In this document: positions 14,446 through 35,781 of the stretch, piece after piece
Position numbering within the stretch: position 1 is the stretch's first letter
Layout: each line of letters begins with the position of its first letter
From: a virus
Reading direction: 5' to 3' (one strand)
Length of the DNA stretch: 35,838 nucleotides
IMG/VR virus record: IMGVR_UViG_3300013099_000049
Location: 1 to 35,838 of that record
The notes under the pieces: model-generated
The model's input: the letters and a program-made list of their open reading frames with translations, nothing else
Database searches by the model: none
What the model was told of the DNA's origin: nothing
Translations under genes and position numbers: made by a program

Positions 14446-15193
14446 ATGTAACAGAACTGATCCCTTTTGGTTGTAGATTATCATCAGATGTGATACCACC
14501 GACCAAAACGTGTTTATTTTGTTCAACTGGATCTTCTTCCATTAACATCATCCAATTTCCATTAATATCTGTTATTGTGCTTTGATGTAATATTAAATCA
14601 ATTTGTTTATATAATAATACAAAACCATCTTGATTGTTTGCTCCATTCACATTCACATTACCCCACACAATTTGATCATCGTACCAAATTGTATCTGAGA
14701 TATACATGGTTACGGGTGAATTATTATTATGATAACCGAAATGATCCCCAACTTTCACAAATTCATTGTATTGTAAAATCGATCCATCATTAATAAAAAA
14801 TTCAATTTTACCATTAGAAATTAATAATTTCATATTATGCCAATGTGAATTTAATAACCAAGGATATATATATTGATCTAAAATAACTGCACTTTCTACA
14901 AATGTTGATATAGTAATCAATTTGATGTTGTATTGTGATAGTTCAATAGCATAACCATTACCCAAATCATCACACCCCAATAAAATTTTAATTGTAAATG
15001 TTGTAACATTTGATGTATAAAACCAAAATGAAAAACCCTCATTAAATTGTCTTGATAAATCCTTCATTATATATGATGGAGCACCAGTAGCAAAGTTCAA
15101 ACTTGGTGAATTATATTTAAATAAAATGCTATCTTCAACCATATTTGATTGTATAGAATAATCTGCTATAGTATATAGTGTATTAATTGACAT
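14441..15193 (-). CDS. LamG-like tail/adhesin protein
   Basis: 250 residues from MSINTLYTIADYS at 15193; the ATG overlaps the gp5-like stop as TAATG. Residues about 1-185 form a ConA/LamG-type sandwich (FNEGFSFWFYTSN, NSHWHNMKLLISNGKIEFFI). Residues about 190-250 resemble a carboxypeptidase-regulatory-type domain (HQSTITDINGNWMML). The same two domain types occur in the downstream giant adhesin, so the proteins may be related or form one fibre. Its position right after the spike gene suggests a baseplate-attached fibre. A longer in-frame start at 15253 inside the upstream gene is unlikely. Confidence 0.7.
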   Translation of the reverse strand: MSINTLYTIADYSIQSNMVEDSILFKYNSPSLNFATGAPSYIMKDLSRQFNEGFSFWFYTSNVTTFTIKILLGCDDLGNGYAIELSQYNIKLITISTFVESAVILDQYIYPWLLNSHWHNMKLLISNGKIEFFINDGSILQYNEFVKVGDHFGYHNNNSPVTMYISDTIWYDDQIVWGNVNVNGANNQDGFVLLYKQIDLILHQSTITDINGNWMMLMEEDPVEQNKHVLVGGITSDDNLQPKGISSVTL

Positions 15194-16137
15194 TAGAAAT
15201 TCATCCCTGGAGATCCACCATTTAAATCTATTCTTGGAGCCTTGATGAAACAATGGTTTCCTGCTCTCATATTATAAACACCACCAACGCTTATACTCAT
15301 ATCCCCTCCAATTTTTTCATTATGATCACCTTTTGTTTCTATATTTGAATCACCATTAACTAGAATGTTAGCATTACCTTCAATTGTGATATTACATTCA
15401 CCTTTAACATGTATATTATCATCACCAAAAATAACTTCATATTTATCATTTTTAATGTGTCTTACTTCCGTACCATCAGCATGAACTTCAACAAACGTGC
15501 CTGCTTTATGATATCTATGATAACGTTCATGTCCTTCTGTATCATCAAATTCTTCAACATGTCCGGATTCTGTTTCCTTTACATGATTATATGGATATTT
15601 TCTACTATCAGGAACGGGTGGTTCACGCCATGTCCCTCTATCTAAAGCTGTTTGAACATCAGATTGTCTATTATCTTTTTTATCTTGAACAATAGTTTCA
15701 GATATTTTTTCACCTCTTGCTAATCTATTAGTATCGGGTTCATTAATAAAATCTTGTTTAGGATATTCACCATTTGGATCATTAAATCCTTTATTTTTTT
15801 GAGCTATTTGTTCCGGAATACCACCAATTGTCCCCATGATGATACCATCTTGTTTATATTCACCATCACGGAAAAATCCTACAACCCAAGTCCCTTCAAC
15901 TATTCCCGTTGGTGATTGTCCAATACCATTCATAGATGAACTATTTGCTGGCATCATTACATTCATCCAAAATAAATCCTCAGATGGTATATCTGTTGTA
16001 TTTTCTGTATGAAATCCAAAACAACGAACTTTTAAACGTCCTAATTTTTTTGGATCAATTCGATCTTCCACAACACCTGTAAACCAAGTAAATGTACCCA
16101 TACTAAATGAAAATGCTGTCTGTTTATTAATATCCAT
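15193..16137 (-). CDS. 5: gp5-like baseplate hub spike, without lysozyme domain
   Basis: 314 residues. The N-terminal OB-fold (FTGVVEDRIDPKKLGRLKVR, PTGIVEGTWVVGFFRDGE, IIMGTIGG) is very like T4 gp5. A linker with ESGHVEEFDDTEGHERYHRY leads to a beta-helix of short repeats (IHVKGECNITIEGNANILVN...). T4 gp5 has a lysozyme domain of about 160 residues between these parts; here it is absent, so this is a VgrG-like spike only. It follows gp27 as in T4 hub complexes. Cell-wall cutting may be supplied by the protein at 21292-23640. Confidence 0.9.
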   Translation of the reverse strand: MDINKQTAFSFSMGTFTWFTGVVEDRIDPKKLGRLKVRCFGFHTENTTDIPSEDLFWMNVMMPANSSSMNGIGQSPTGIVEGTWVVGFFRDGEYKQDGIIMGTIGGIPEQIAQKNKGFNDPNGEYPKQDFINEPDTNRLARGEKISETIVQDKKDNRQSDVQTALDRGTWREPPVPDSRKYPYNHVKETESGHVEEFDDTEGHERYHRYHKAGTFVEVHADGTEVRHIKNDKYEVIFGDDNIHVKGECNITIEGNANILVNGDSNIETKGDHNEKIGGDMSISVGGVYNMRAGNHCFIKAPRIDLNGGSPGMNF

Positions 16138-26701: not shown

Positions 26702-27886
26702 TTATTCACTTATTTCTGAAACAATTCCTGCTCCAACAGTCTTACCACCTTCACGAATAGCAAAACGTACACCAACTTCCATTCCAATTGCTTTGAATAA
26801 TTCAAAAGAAATATCACATTGATCTCCAGGATTTGCAGAACCAACATCATTTAAAATTTCGATTTTACCTGTAACATCAGTAGTACCGAAGAAAAATTGA
26901 GGTTGATAACCAGATACTAATGGAGTATGTCTACCACCTTCATCTTTTGATAAAATGAAGATGTGTGCTTTACCCTTAGTGTAAGATTTAATTGAATTTG
27001 GAATAGCCATAACTTGTCCACGTTCAACTTCATTACGTTTTATTCCACGTAGTAAAATACCAACATTCATTCCTGCTCTTGCTTCCGGAACATCTTTACG
27101 GAACGCTTGTGTACCTGTAACAACGATTTCACGATCATCAGACTTTAATCCAATTAGTTCAACCTTATCACCAACTTTTAATACACCACGTTCAACTTTA
27201 CCAGTTACAACAGTACCACGACCTTCAATCGAAAACACATCTTCAATAGGCATCATGAAAGGTGAATCAAAATCACGAACCGGATCAGGAATAGCAGTAT
27301 CTAATGCATCCATTAATTCAGCGATACATTTAACATCTTTACTGTCAATTTCACCACGATCCATTGCTTCCATAGCTTTTAATGCAGAACCGAATACAAA
27401 TGTTACATTTTCATAACCTTGTGATTCTAACTGTTCTTCAATTTCCATTTGAACAAGTTCACCCATTTCAGCACGTTCATCATCATCCAACATATCCATT
27501 TTATTAACGAATACAACAATATTACCAACATTAACTTGTTTTGCTAATAGAATGTGTTCAATTGTTTGTTTTTGTGCTCCATCAGTACCAGATACTAACA
27601 AAATAGCACCATCCATTTGAGCAGTACCCGTGATCATATTCTTAACATAATCAGCGTGTCCTGGGCAATCAATGTGTGCATAATGACGGGTTTCACTTTC
27701 GTATTCAATATGTGAAGTATTAATTGTGATACCACGTTCTTTTTCTTCTTTAGCATTATCAATCTTATCAAAATCTAATGCTTCTCCACCAAATTTAGCA
27801 GATGAAAATTTGCTAATAGCAGAAGTAAGTGTAGTTTTTCCGTGATCAACGTGACCAATAGTACCAACATTAACATGTGTTTTCAT
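26702..27886 (-). CDS. tuf: elongation factor Tu
   Basis: 394 residues, a complete three-domain EF-Tu. GTPase motifs: GHVDHGKT at 11-18, RGITINTSH at 51-59, DCPGHAD at 73-79, NKMD at 128-131, SALK at 167-170. Domain 2 ([19 protein letters not shown]) and domain 3 ([36 protein letters not shown]) are intact. EF-Tu-GTP brings aminoacyl-tRNA, and Ala-tmRNA with SmpB, to the ribosome. It differs from cellular EF-Tu in lacking the usual first ten residues, in AQKQTIEH where bacteria have PMPQTREH, and in a longer acidic segment at 133-160. AAGGAAAAG precedes the ATG. Base composition matches the phage genes, so the transfer is old. Confidence 0.95.
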
Positions 27887-31947: not shown

Positions 31948-32448
31948 TTAAGAATAATTATCTTCAACCCAACCATGCCAATCAAAACCACATGAACACA
32001 GATCAGAATCTTCATAACATTCCGGACAACTTGGAATTTCAACTGTTATTTTAGTTCCAGCAGGATATAAATTGGATGGAAAATCAATATTATCAAGAAC
32101 TTCACTTTGCATATCACCATCCGTTTGAGCTTCCCAATATTTCCTATGCTTGTCCTGTTTCTCACCATCATAACAATCAATTTTAAGTTCAGCCCATGTT
32201 CTATGATTGTATTCGGGTTTATATGTTTTGGTTACACGTTCTTCAATCATATTCAATACTCTTTCATATTCAGGATAATGTGATTCAATAACAACACCTT
32301 TCAATCCCTGTTTTTTGTCATTTATTCTACATGCATGAATATGACTACTAATACTTGAAAGTTCACCTTTTTCCTTATCACTAAGATATTTTTCAACATC
32401 AGAATATTTAATTGTTAAATATATATTTTCACGTTTAAGATCTTCCAT
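31948..32448 (-). CDS. hypothetical protein inside tRNA array (166 aa)
   Basis: MEDLKRENIYLTIKYSDVEK... with a charged helical first half and a C-terminal cysteine cluster (CPECYEDSDLCSCGF) that could bind zinc, ending DWHGWVEDNYS. No family recognised. It lies 8 bases from tRNA-Ser, so the tRNAs and this gene are likely co-transcribed and then processed. Confidence 0.65.
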   Translation of the reverse strand: MEDLKRENIYLTIKYSDVEKYLSDKEKGELSSISSHIHACRINDKKQGLKGVVIESHYPEYERVLNMIEERVTKTYKPEYNHRTWAELKIDCYDGEKQDKHRKYWEAQTDGDMQSEVLDNIDFPSNLYPAGTKITVEIPSCPECYEDSDLCSCGFDWHGWVEDNYS

Positions 32449-34725: not shown

Positions 34726-35193
34726 ATGAAATTACACAAATACACATCCGAACAACTTACTTTTGCTGTCAAAAATAATGTCTCTATGAGACAAGTATTA
34801 TTAACTTTGAATGTTTCTCCCTATGGTGGTAATTATGACACCCTTAGAAAAGCACTCAAATATTTCAATTTAGATATCTCACATTTTACTGGACAACATA
34901 GCAATAAAGGACGAACATTTCCAAAAAGACAACGACCATTATCTGACTACCTTTCAAATAAATGTTTCATAACTTCTCATAAATTGAGATTAAGATTGTT
35001 AAGAGAAAATATATTTCAACCAATTTGTTCATCTTGCAAAAACACTGAATGGATGAATAAACCAATTCCACTTGAATTAGATCATATTAGTGGAATAAAT
35101 GATGATAACGATCTATCAAATTTAAGATTATTATGTCCAAATTGCCATGCTCAAACAGATACATATAGAGGTAAAAATATTGGTAAAACTTAA
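34726..35193 (+). CDS. HNH endonuclease within tRNA array
   Basis: 155 residues, intact. The N-terminal half looks like a DNA-binding helix-turn-helix (SEQLTFAVKNNVSMRQVLLT) plus a linker. The C-terminal half has a zinc HNH core: PICSSCKN, PLELDHISGINDDNDLSNLR, LLCPNCHAQT. Such free-standing homing nucleases cut related phage genomes and copy themselves by repair. It lies on the strand opposite to the tRNAs, between tRNA-Leu(UAA) and tRNA-Tyr, which marks it as an insertion. Confidence 0.85.
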   Translation: MKLHKYTSEQLTFAVKNNVSMRQVLLTLNVSPYGGNYDTLRKALKYFNLDISHFTGQHSNKGRTFPKRQRPLSDYLSNKCFITSHKLRLRLLRENIFQPICSSCKNTEWMNKPIPLELDHISGINDDNDLSNLRLLCPNCHAQTDTYRGKNIGKT

Positions 35194-35316
35194 CTATTCT
35201 TTGTATATTATTATATCATTTTGGTTAATAATGTACAACCTTTTTGTTCCTTATTTCTTTACGTTCCTTATTAATGTACCTATAATATTTTGATTTTTTG
35301 TACATTAATCTAAATT

Positions 35317-35406
35317 TGGTGGTTGTGGGTGGACTCGAACCACCGTAGATCCTTTCGGTATCGGGAGATTTACAGTCTCCTGCAATTGCCACTATGCGAC
35401 ACAACC
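35317..35406 (-). tRNA. tRNA-Tyr (GUA)
   Basis: Acceptor GGTTGTG/CACAACC, A73 and CCA, anticodon stem GGAGA/TCTCC with loop CTGTAAA (anticodon GUA), variable arm GATACCGAAAGGATC, T-arm GGTGGTTCGAGTCCACC. It starts 8 bases after a hairpin at the end of the tmRNA coding piece. Confidence 0.93.
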
Positions 35407-35462
35407 TTATAATAGGGTGTTTTGGTTATAATGTACACCCTTTCGGAAACATCAGGTCAAGA

Positions 35463-35504
35463 TTACGCTACTAACGCTACTTCACCATAAACTTCATCAT
35501 TTGC
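35463..35504 (-). other. tmRNA tag reading frame ANDEVYGEVALVA
   Basis: Resume codon GCA at 35504, preceded by TAATC (E. coli has TAGTC there), then 13 codons and TAA. With the alanine from the tRNA part the tag begins AANDEVY, matching the AANDxxY pattern bound by SspB in gammaproteobacteria, and it ends ALVA, close to the LAA end recognised by ClpXP. Confidence 0.92.
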
Positions 35505-35601
35505 GATTAGTTTAAAAGTTTGCTTCTTTAATATCACAGCTTTCACATTGCCGAACGATTTATACCTATTTTAACCCTTGTCGAAACCATGACACCCCCA
35601 T

Positions 35602-35717
35602 CATAAACACTTTACCCATTACGTCATTATGGTGATTTTGATTGGTATTTTACCGCTAAGTTGCATACCCACACATCAGATCTATACTGATATCATGTTG
35701 ACTATAAAGTGTTTATG
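35602..35717 (-). repeat. 13-bp inverted repeat framing the tmRNA spacer
   Basis: CATAAACACTTTA (35602-35614) and TAAAGTGTTTATG (35705-35717) are perfect complements. The stem brings the CCA end and the 5' G of the two tmRNA pieces together in the precursor, as expected for the spacer of a permuted tmRNA that is removed by processing. Confidence 0.9.
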
Positions 35718-35781
35718 GTGGAAGTGACGGGAGTCGAACCCGTGTCCAAAGTGCTTTTTACTATATAAACTTTACGTTGTT

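Follow-up and report, generated by a model that had tools for sequence, protein, structure and literature searches.

A circularly permuted tmRNA gene at the tRNA array of a T4-type phage, with a conserved spacer-closing helix and small protein genes in the spacers of its phage relatives

We analysed a linear virus record of 35,838 bases (the whole stretch is called the window here) and found at its right end what is very probably a functional circularly permuted, that is two-piece, tmRNA gene of a T4-type phage, whose most likely role is trans-translation during infection together with the host's SmpB. ARAGORN called a permuted (starred) tmRNA on the minus strand, 35778-35415, with the tag ANDEVYGEVALVA. 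The Rfam model RF04321 (tmRNA_permuted) scored 94.1 bits (E 3.6e-17; the cut-off is 47) at 35778-35463 of the same strand and was covered over its full length (positions 1-213 of 213); this E-value is by itself sufficient to settle that the locus is more than chance. The initial annotation, made from the letters alone, had proposed a phage-encoded permuted tmRNA and named Rfam tmRNA models and ARAGORN as the way to check it, and the two agree on exactly such a gene. Its further statement that a two-piece tmRNA in a T4-type phage is not well described has to be withdrawn: two-piece tmRNAs have been published for the phages Melnitz and Pelagibacter phage Mosig (PMC9004378), so the window gene adds to an already known kind.

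The anatomy of the gene is complete, and all of its parts lie on the minus strand. The CCA-bearing acceptor piece is encoded upstream of the coding piece, with an intervening sequence between the two. The acceptor piece (35716..35778; ARAGORN and RF04321) comprises the 5' half of helix P2, the T-arm, the 3' strand of the acceptor stem and an encoded CCA (35718-35716); its T-arm, ACGGG-UUCGACU-CCCGU, has a canonical T-loop (35727..35743; ARAGORN and T-loop comparison). It is followed by the intervening sequence or spacer (IVS) of 116 nt (35600..35715), which is predicted to be removed. The coding piece (35415..35599; ARAGORN, RF04321 and co-folding) starts with GGGGGTG at 35599 and holds the acceptor 5' strand GGGGGUG, a D-like region (AUGGUUUCGAC), the 3' half of P2, the tag frame and a 3' hairpin ending at 35415. 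The tag reading frame (35463..35504; ARAGORN) runs from the resume codon GCA to the stop TAA, both intact. Together the two pieces form the acceptor stem GGGGGUG/CACUUCC, with seven pairs that include the alanine identity pair G3-U70 and, in addition, G4-U69. The order of the pieces with their 116-nt spacer, the full 7-bp acceptor stem with G3-U70, the tmRNA-type T-arm, the 5' GGGG...TTCGAC consensus, the tag frame resuming at GCA and a perfect 13-bp stem closing the spacer had all been read from the sequence beforehand, and each of them is present where it had been placed.

Folding gave a consistent picture. An unconstrained two-molecule co-fold of acceptor and coding pieces yielded the acceptor stem, the T-arm and P2, with P2 alone not stronger than in shuffled sequences (18% reach its strength). 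The coding piece may also form a 3' pseudoknot (TGATGT/ACATTA and AGGGTGT/ACACCCT; 35414..35454, minus strand), which alone is not significant, being equalled in 11% of shuffles. ARAGORN, and Rfam at E up to 1, found no tRNA relic in the window spacer.

The helix that closes this spacer pairs CATAAACACTTTA (5' arm, 35705..35717), which includes C75 and A76 of the CCA, with TAAAGTGTTTATG (3' arm, 35602..35614), which lies within or next to the leader UGAU (35603-35600) preceding the predicted RNase P site. All 13 pairs are perfect, the first two being formed by the CA of CCA, and shuffles of the window spacer reached an anchored helix of at least 13 pairs in 9 of 100,000 cases. We then compared 49 unique phage spacers of at least 50 nt among the matches listed. 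Their register is fixed, with C75 paired to G-3, A76 to U-4 and about 10 further bp inward, and 90.6% of the first 12 pairs are formed, versus 66.9% when partners were swapped between loci (500 trials, SD 1.6, maximum 71.8%). At several positions, four or five different standard pair types are seen, with many compensatory changes, which amounts to strong covariation. The leader is conserved as well in the 49 loci (U at -4 in 47, G at -3 in 40, A at -2 in 47 and U at -1 in 47), counted in loci chosen by their acceptor end alone. Judged from these pairing patterns, the spacer-closing helix is a conserved element of the predicted precursor across the phage relatives. Given its register and pairing, the precursor looks like a single long hairpin, an extension of the acceptor stem in which part of the CCA end is paired. 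The C75:G-3 contact is common to 30 of 34 bacterial permuted tmRNAs; long helices occur in some of the bacterial genes, which overall have a weaker helix and shorter spacers than the phage genes. One 144-nt spacer has an 18-bp closing helix and strong internal structure, without a significant ORF.

By analogy with the tmRNA family, the gene would be read as a single transcript, probably common with the downstream tRNAs, that would fold with its acceptor stem extended by the spacer helix starting on the CA of CCA. Host RNase P would cut between UGAU and GGGGG, 3'-end nucleases would then trim at the CCA, and the spacer would be lost, with the acceptor RNA and the coding RNA held together by the acceptor stem and helix P2. 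Alanine would be charged via G3-U70. EF-Tu (host or phage copy) and host SmpB would bring the alanyl-tmRNA to stalled ribosomes, where the tag would be added to the nascent protein and the ribosome freed, which would be the benefit to the phage during infection. We found SmpB in 1 of 20 records searched (mostly phages with permuted tmRNA, several of them above 150 kb), and that record carries a standard tmRNA. Since SmpB is absent from the other 19, the host protein is the likely partner; its absence from the window itself means little because the window is a 35.8-kb fragment.

The surroundings are those of a T4-type phage, as the initial annotation had held when it placed the gene inside a tRNA array. 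Flanking genes encode a baseplate hub/lysozyme, tail tube cap, baseplate wedge, gp32-like SSB and Dda-like helicase. The minus-strand array has nine tRNAs according to ARAGORN, and the next gene in it, tRNA-Tyr(GTA) (35317..35406, minus strand; ARAGORN and Rfam), starts 8 nt past the tmRNA 3' hairpin. A 24-nt stretch of the tmRNA 3' end (35420-35443) is directly repeated with 83% identity 200 bp downstream (35220-35243), past tRNA-Tyr and adjoining an oppositely oriented HNH endonuclease gene (34726-35193); this repeat is possibly the trace of an insertion or duplication. Between 34100 and 34550 on the minus strand are several T-arm/CCA-like ends that ARAGORN does not call (for example AGGTTCGATTCC...CCTACCA); they may belong to degenerate or unusual tRNAs. 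The baseplate hub/tail lysozyme homologue (15193-16137, minus strand) has just 314 aa, and the PHROG profiles that it matches are mostly longer, several with 640-930 positions. For the neighbouring window protein at 31948-32448, no relatives were found.

The window also encodes a complete EF-Tu of 394 aa (26702..27886, minus strand; TIGR00485, 558.6 bits versus a cut-off of 522.4), up to about 61% identical to bacterial copies and to those on other phage contigs. EF-Tu is the factor that delivers alanyl-tmRNA, and the phage copy may serve the tmRNA. A functional pairing of the two genes was considered and rejected: only 1 of 29 EF-Tu records, many of them maybe bacterial, had a permuted tmRNA above cut-off, which gives no association. 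Three other EF-Tu records gave weak RF04321 matches that ARAGORN calls standard tmRNAs. EF-Tu in large phages has been reported earlier (PMC7162821).

How widespread is this type of gene? A survey from 2021 found 53 unique two-piece tmRNAs in 18,146 phage genomes, 50 of the 53 being aquatic (PMC9004378), and the 2025 tmRNA database, the source of RF04321, gives 79 phage sequences (PMC11915505). We scanned IMG/VR with an acceptor-end pattern, which returned at least 120 stretches (most of those with a tmRNA were permuted according to ARAGORN), and with a coding-piece-start pattern, which returned 94 (71 of the 82 new ones had a permuted call). Both scans together comprise at least 138 viral permuted tmRNA genes. 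Unannotated permuted tmRNAs were also present in the cultured phages Xanthomonas XacN1, Pseudomonas PA_L9 and SM1, Acinetobacter phage BUCT628, Stenotrophomonas phage QDWS359 and Alcaligenes phage QDWS595. Several of these lie beside tRNA genes and most share the UGAU leader of the window and have a closing helix, with other tags and other spacers; XacN1 has two tRNAs with CTA anticodon near its permuted tmRNA. Loci lacking an ARAGORN call were considered as fully split tmRNA genes, an idea we discarded on finding that they were mostly contig ends, standard genes or genes with long spacers, which reached 475 nt.

The published genes of Melnitz (OM43) and Mosig (SAR11) are, like that of the window, permuted tmRNAs of T4-type myophages with the same parts, namely acceptor piece, spacer, coding piece and tag (PMC9004378). 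Mosig, classified in the Kyanoviridae and with its tmRNA already annotated, differs by a GUGCAAC T-loop, a 44-nt spacer and the tag GEDNFALAA. Both published examples carry a glutamine riboswitch, whereas the window gene has a canonical T-loop, a 116-nt spacer and a location in a tRNA array. A sibling phage with this exact tmRNA was not found in our searches; the sole near sibling, a contig of 4.7 kb, lacks the tRNA array. On that contig an EF-Tu 93% identical to the window copy lies beside the same SSB gene.

An inhibitory phage RNA with a tmRNA domain only is known (PMC11915505, PMC4131195). The window RNA might, in the manner of the tag-less tmRNA from mycobacteriophage DS6A, act as a decoy or inhibitor by titrating SmpB or EF-Tu; we consider this improbable, as its tag frame is complete from the resume codon GCA to the stop, and diverse intact tags are kept among the phage relatives. 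It is very improbable that the gene is a decaying passenger of a tRNA array that has other tRNA-like remnants and HNH genes nearby, given that every identity and pairing element is intact and that even the perfect spacer helix, expected to erode early, is still present.

Where phages obtained such genes is a separate question, for which two answers weigh about equally; each is possible and, taken singly, somewhat doubtful. The first is that the phage genes arose by a permutation of their own, which would be the fourth, or belong to a lineage that phages themselves maintain, and were not copied recently from a bacterial permuted gene. In a tree of the tRNA-like domain (67 columns; bacterial permuted references from Alphaproteobacteria and, with two rows, Betaproteobacteria; viral sample chosen for canonical T-loops), the permuted genes of Alphaproteobacteria grouped in a single clade (100/100) that excluded the window and almost all permuted genes of phages. 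This clade has GGCGGUA-type T-loops, which the window lacks. Moreover, phages infecting Pseudomonas, Acinetobacter, Stenotrophomonas and Xanthomonas carry permuted genes, although the tmRNA of these hosts is, as far as is known, in one piece. But on these 67 columns the AU tests rejected no grouping, be it a single phage clade, phage+beta, phage+alpha or window+alpha (p 0.20-0.52 for the last three; p 0.26 for phage+beta, with only two beta rows), and an exact 5' stretch of the window gene, GGGGGTGNCATGGTTTCGAC, is found in beta-type Rhodocyclaceae genes too.

That stretch leads to the second answer, that a phage ancestor took the gene from a bacterium with a beta-type permuted tmRNA. The sole bacterial permuted matches to the exact 5' pattern were two Rhodocyclaceae, and the permuted genes of Betaproteobacteria (RF01850 type; four loci compared) resemble the window gene in their canonical-type T-loop, near-identical 5' domain and ANDE-type tag, some with a closing helix. 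However, tag, spacer length and acceptor all differ from the window; the beta spacers measure 4-43 nt and the beta tags are mostly ANDERFALAA. In addition, the exact 5' stretch matches mostly standard tmRNAs of many phyla and is thus not diagnostic of a beta origin. Since our bacterial-genome pattern was picked to match the window 5' half, counts of nearest neighbours among standard bacterial genes are skewed and carry no weight here.

An alphaproteobacterial origin, as argued for Melnitz, was considered and set aside. Alphaproteobacterial permuted genes (RF01849 type, for example Caulobacter) share the gene order and the C75:G-3 contact of the precursor with the window, but have GGCGGUA or GGCAGUA T-loops, mostly a AGGAUCGAC 5' domain and spacers of usually 5-90 nt. 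The window has GGGTTCGACTCCC where alpha rows have GGGGGCGGTACCC or GGGGGCAGTACCC, and in the free tree its gene lies outside the alpha clade, although the AU test does not reject forcing it in (p 0.52, 67 columns).

The spacers of many phage relatives are not empty. We counted a spacer as coding if an ORF of at least 20 codons begins no further than 20 nt into it and takes up 70% or more of its length. By this measure, 45 of the 97 unique phage spacers of at least 50 nt among the matches listed contain a small protein gene, in 27 sequence clusters. Upstream of the start, 42 of the 45 nested ORFs have a Shine-Dalgarno-like purine stretch, located within the 5' arm of this helix or next to it. 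In 32 of the 45 the stop is the UGA at -4 to -2 (a number biased upwards by our second scan, which fixed the leader TATGAT); in the others it lies just ahead of the 3' arm. After shuffling of the spacer interiors, about 7 of 99 spacers would be expected to be coding; for spacers of at least 160 nt, the comparison is 18 of 21 observed versus 0.2 expected. Among loci chosen by the acceptor end alone, 15 of 50 spacers were coding, including 7 of the 10 with at least 130 nt (matches listed). Six pairs of nested ORFs with enough change had dN/dS values from about 0.08 to 0.73, five of them at or below 0.54; a seventh pair had zero synonymous changes and is hence uninformative.

Some products can be named. 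Three loci (L349, L377 and L396) have an identical spacer encoding an 84-aa thioredoxin with WCGPC (PF00085, E 4e-21); compared with L349, L377 is missing about 70 nt of its coding piece, so the L377 tmRNA may be damaged or misassembled. In another locus, a 475-nt spacer holds a 112-aa ORF weakly like GNAT acetyltransferases. Nested spacer genes were also seen in L017, L035, L118, L036, L361, L372, L390 and others. We found no published account of protein genes in tmRNA spacers in a literature search that fell short of many subscription papers; the accessible part of the 2025 tmRNA database paper names a tRNA and a repeat as spacer contents, and no protein gene (PMC11915505). Spacer-nested protein genes in phage permuted tmRNAs are well supported. 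In the window, the 116-nt spacer has no leading or nested ORF by the same measure. The window gene could tentatively be seen as the empty example of a phage spacer hairpin that nests small genes, in which translation and tmRNA maturation would compete; as both would use the same RNA, levels of the nested protein and of the tmRNA may be coupled.

The window gene thus adds a long-spacer, tRNA-array example to the phages that have their own ribosome-rescue RNA, on a fragment that also encodes EF-Tu. The wider pattern outweighs this single gene: permuted tmRNAs are common in phages and mostly unannotated, cultured phages of Pseudomonas, Acinetobacter, Stenotrophomonas, Xanthomonas and Alcaligenes are among the carriers, the CCA end of the precursors appears to be partly bound in a shared, covarying helix, and in many phages the spacer predicted to be excised holds protein genes. 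With cultured phages, the processing of permuted tmRNAs, and why permutation is favoured, become testable.
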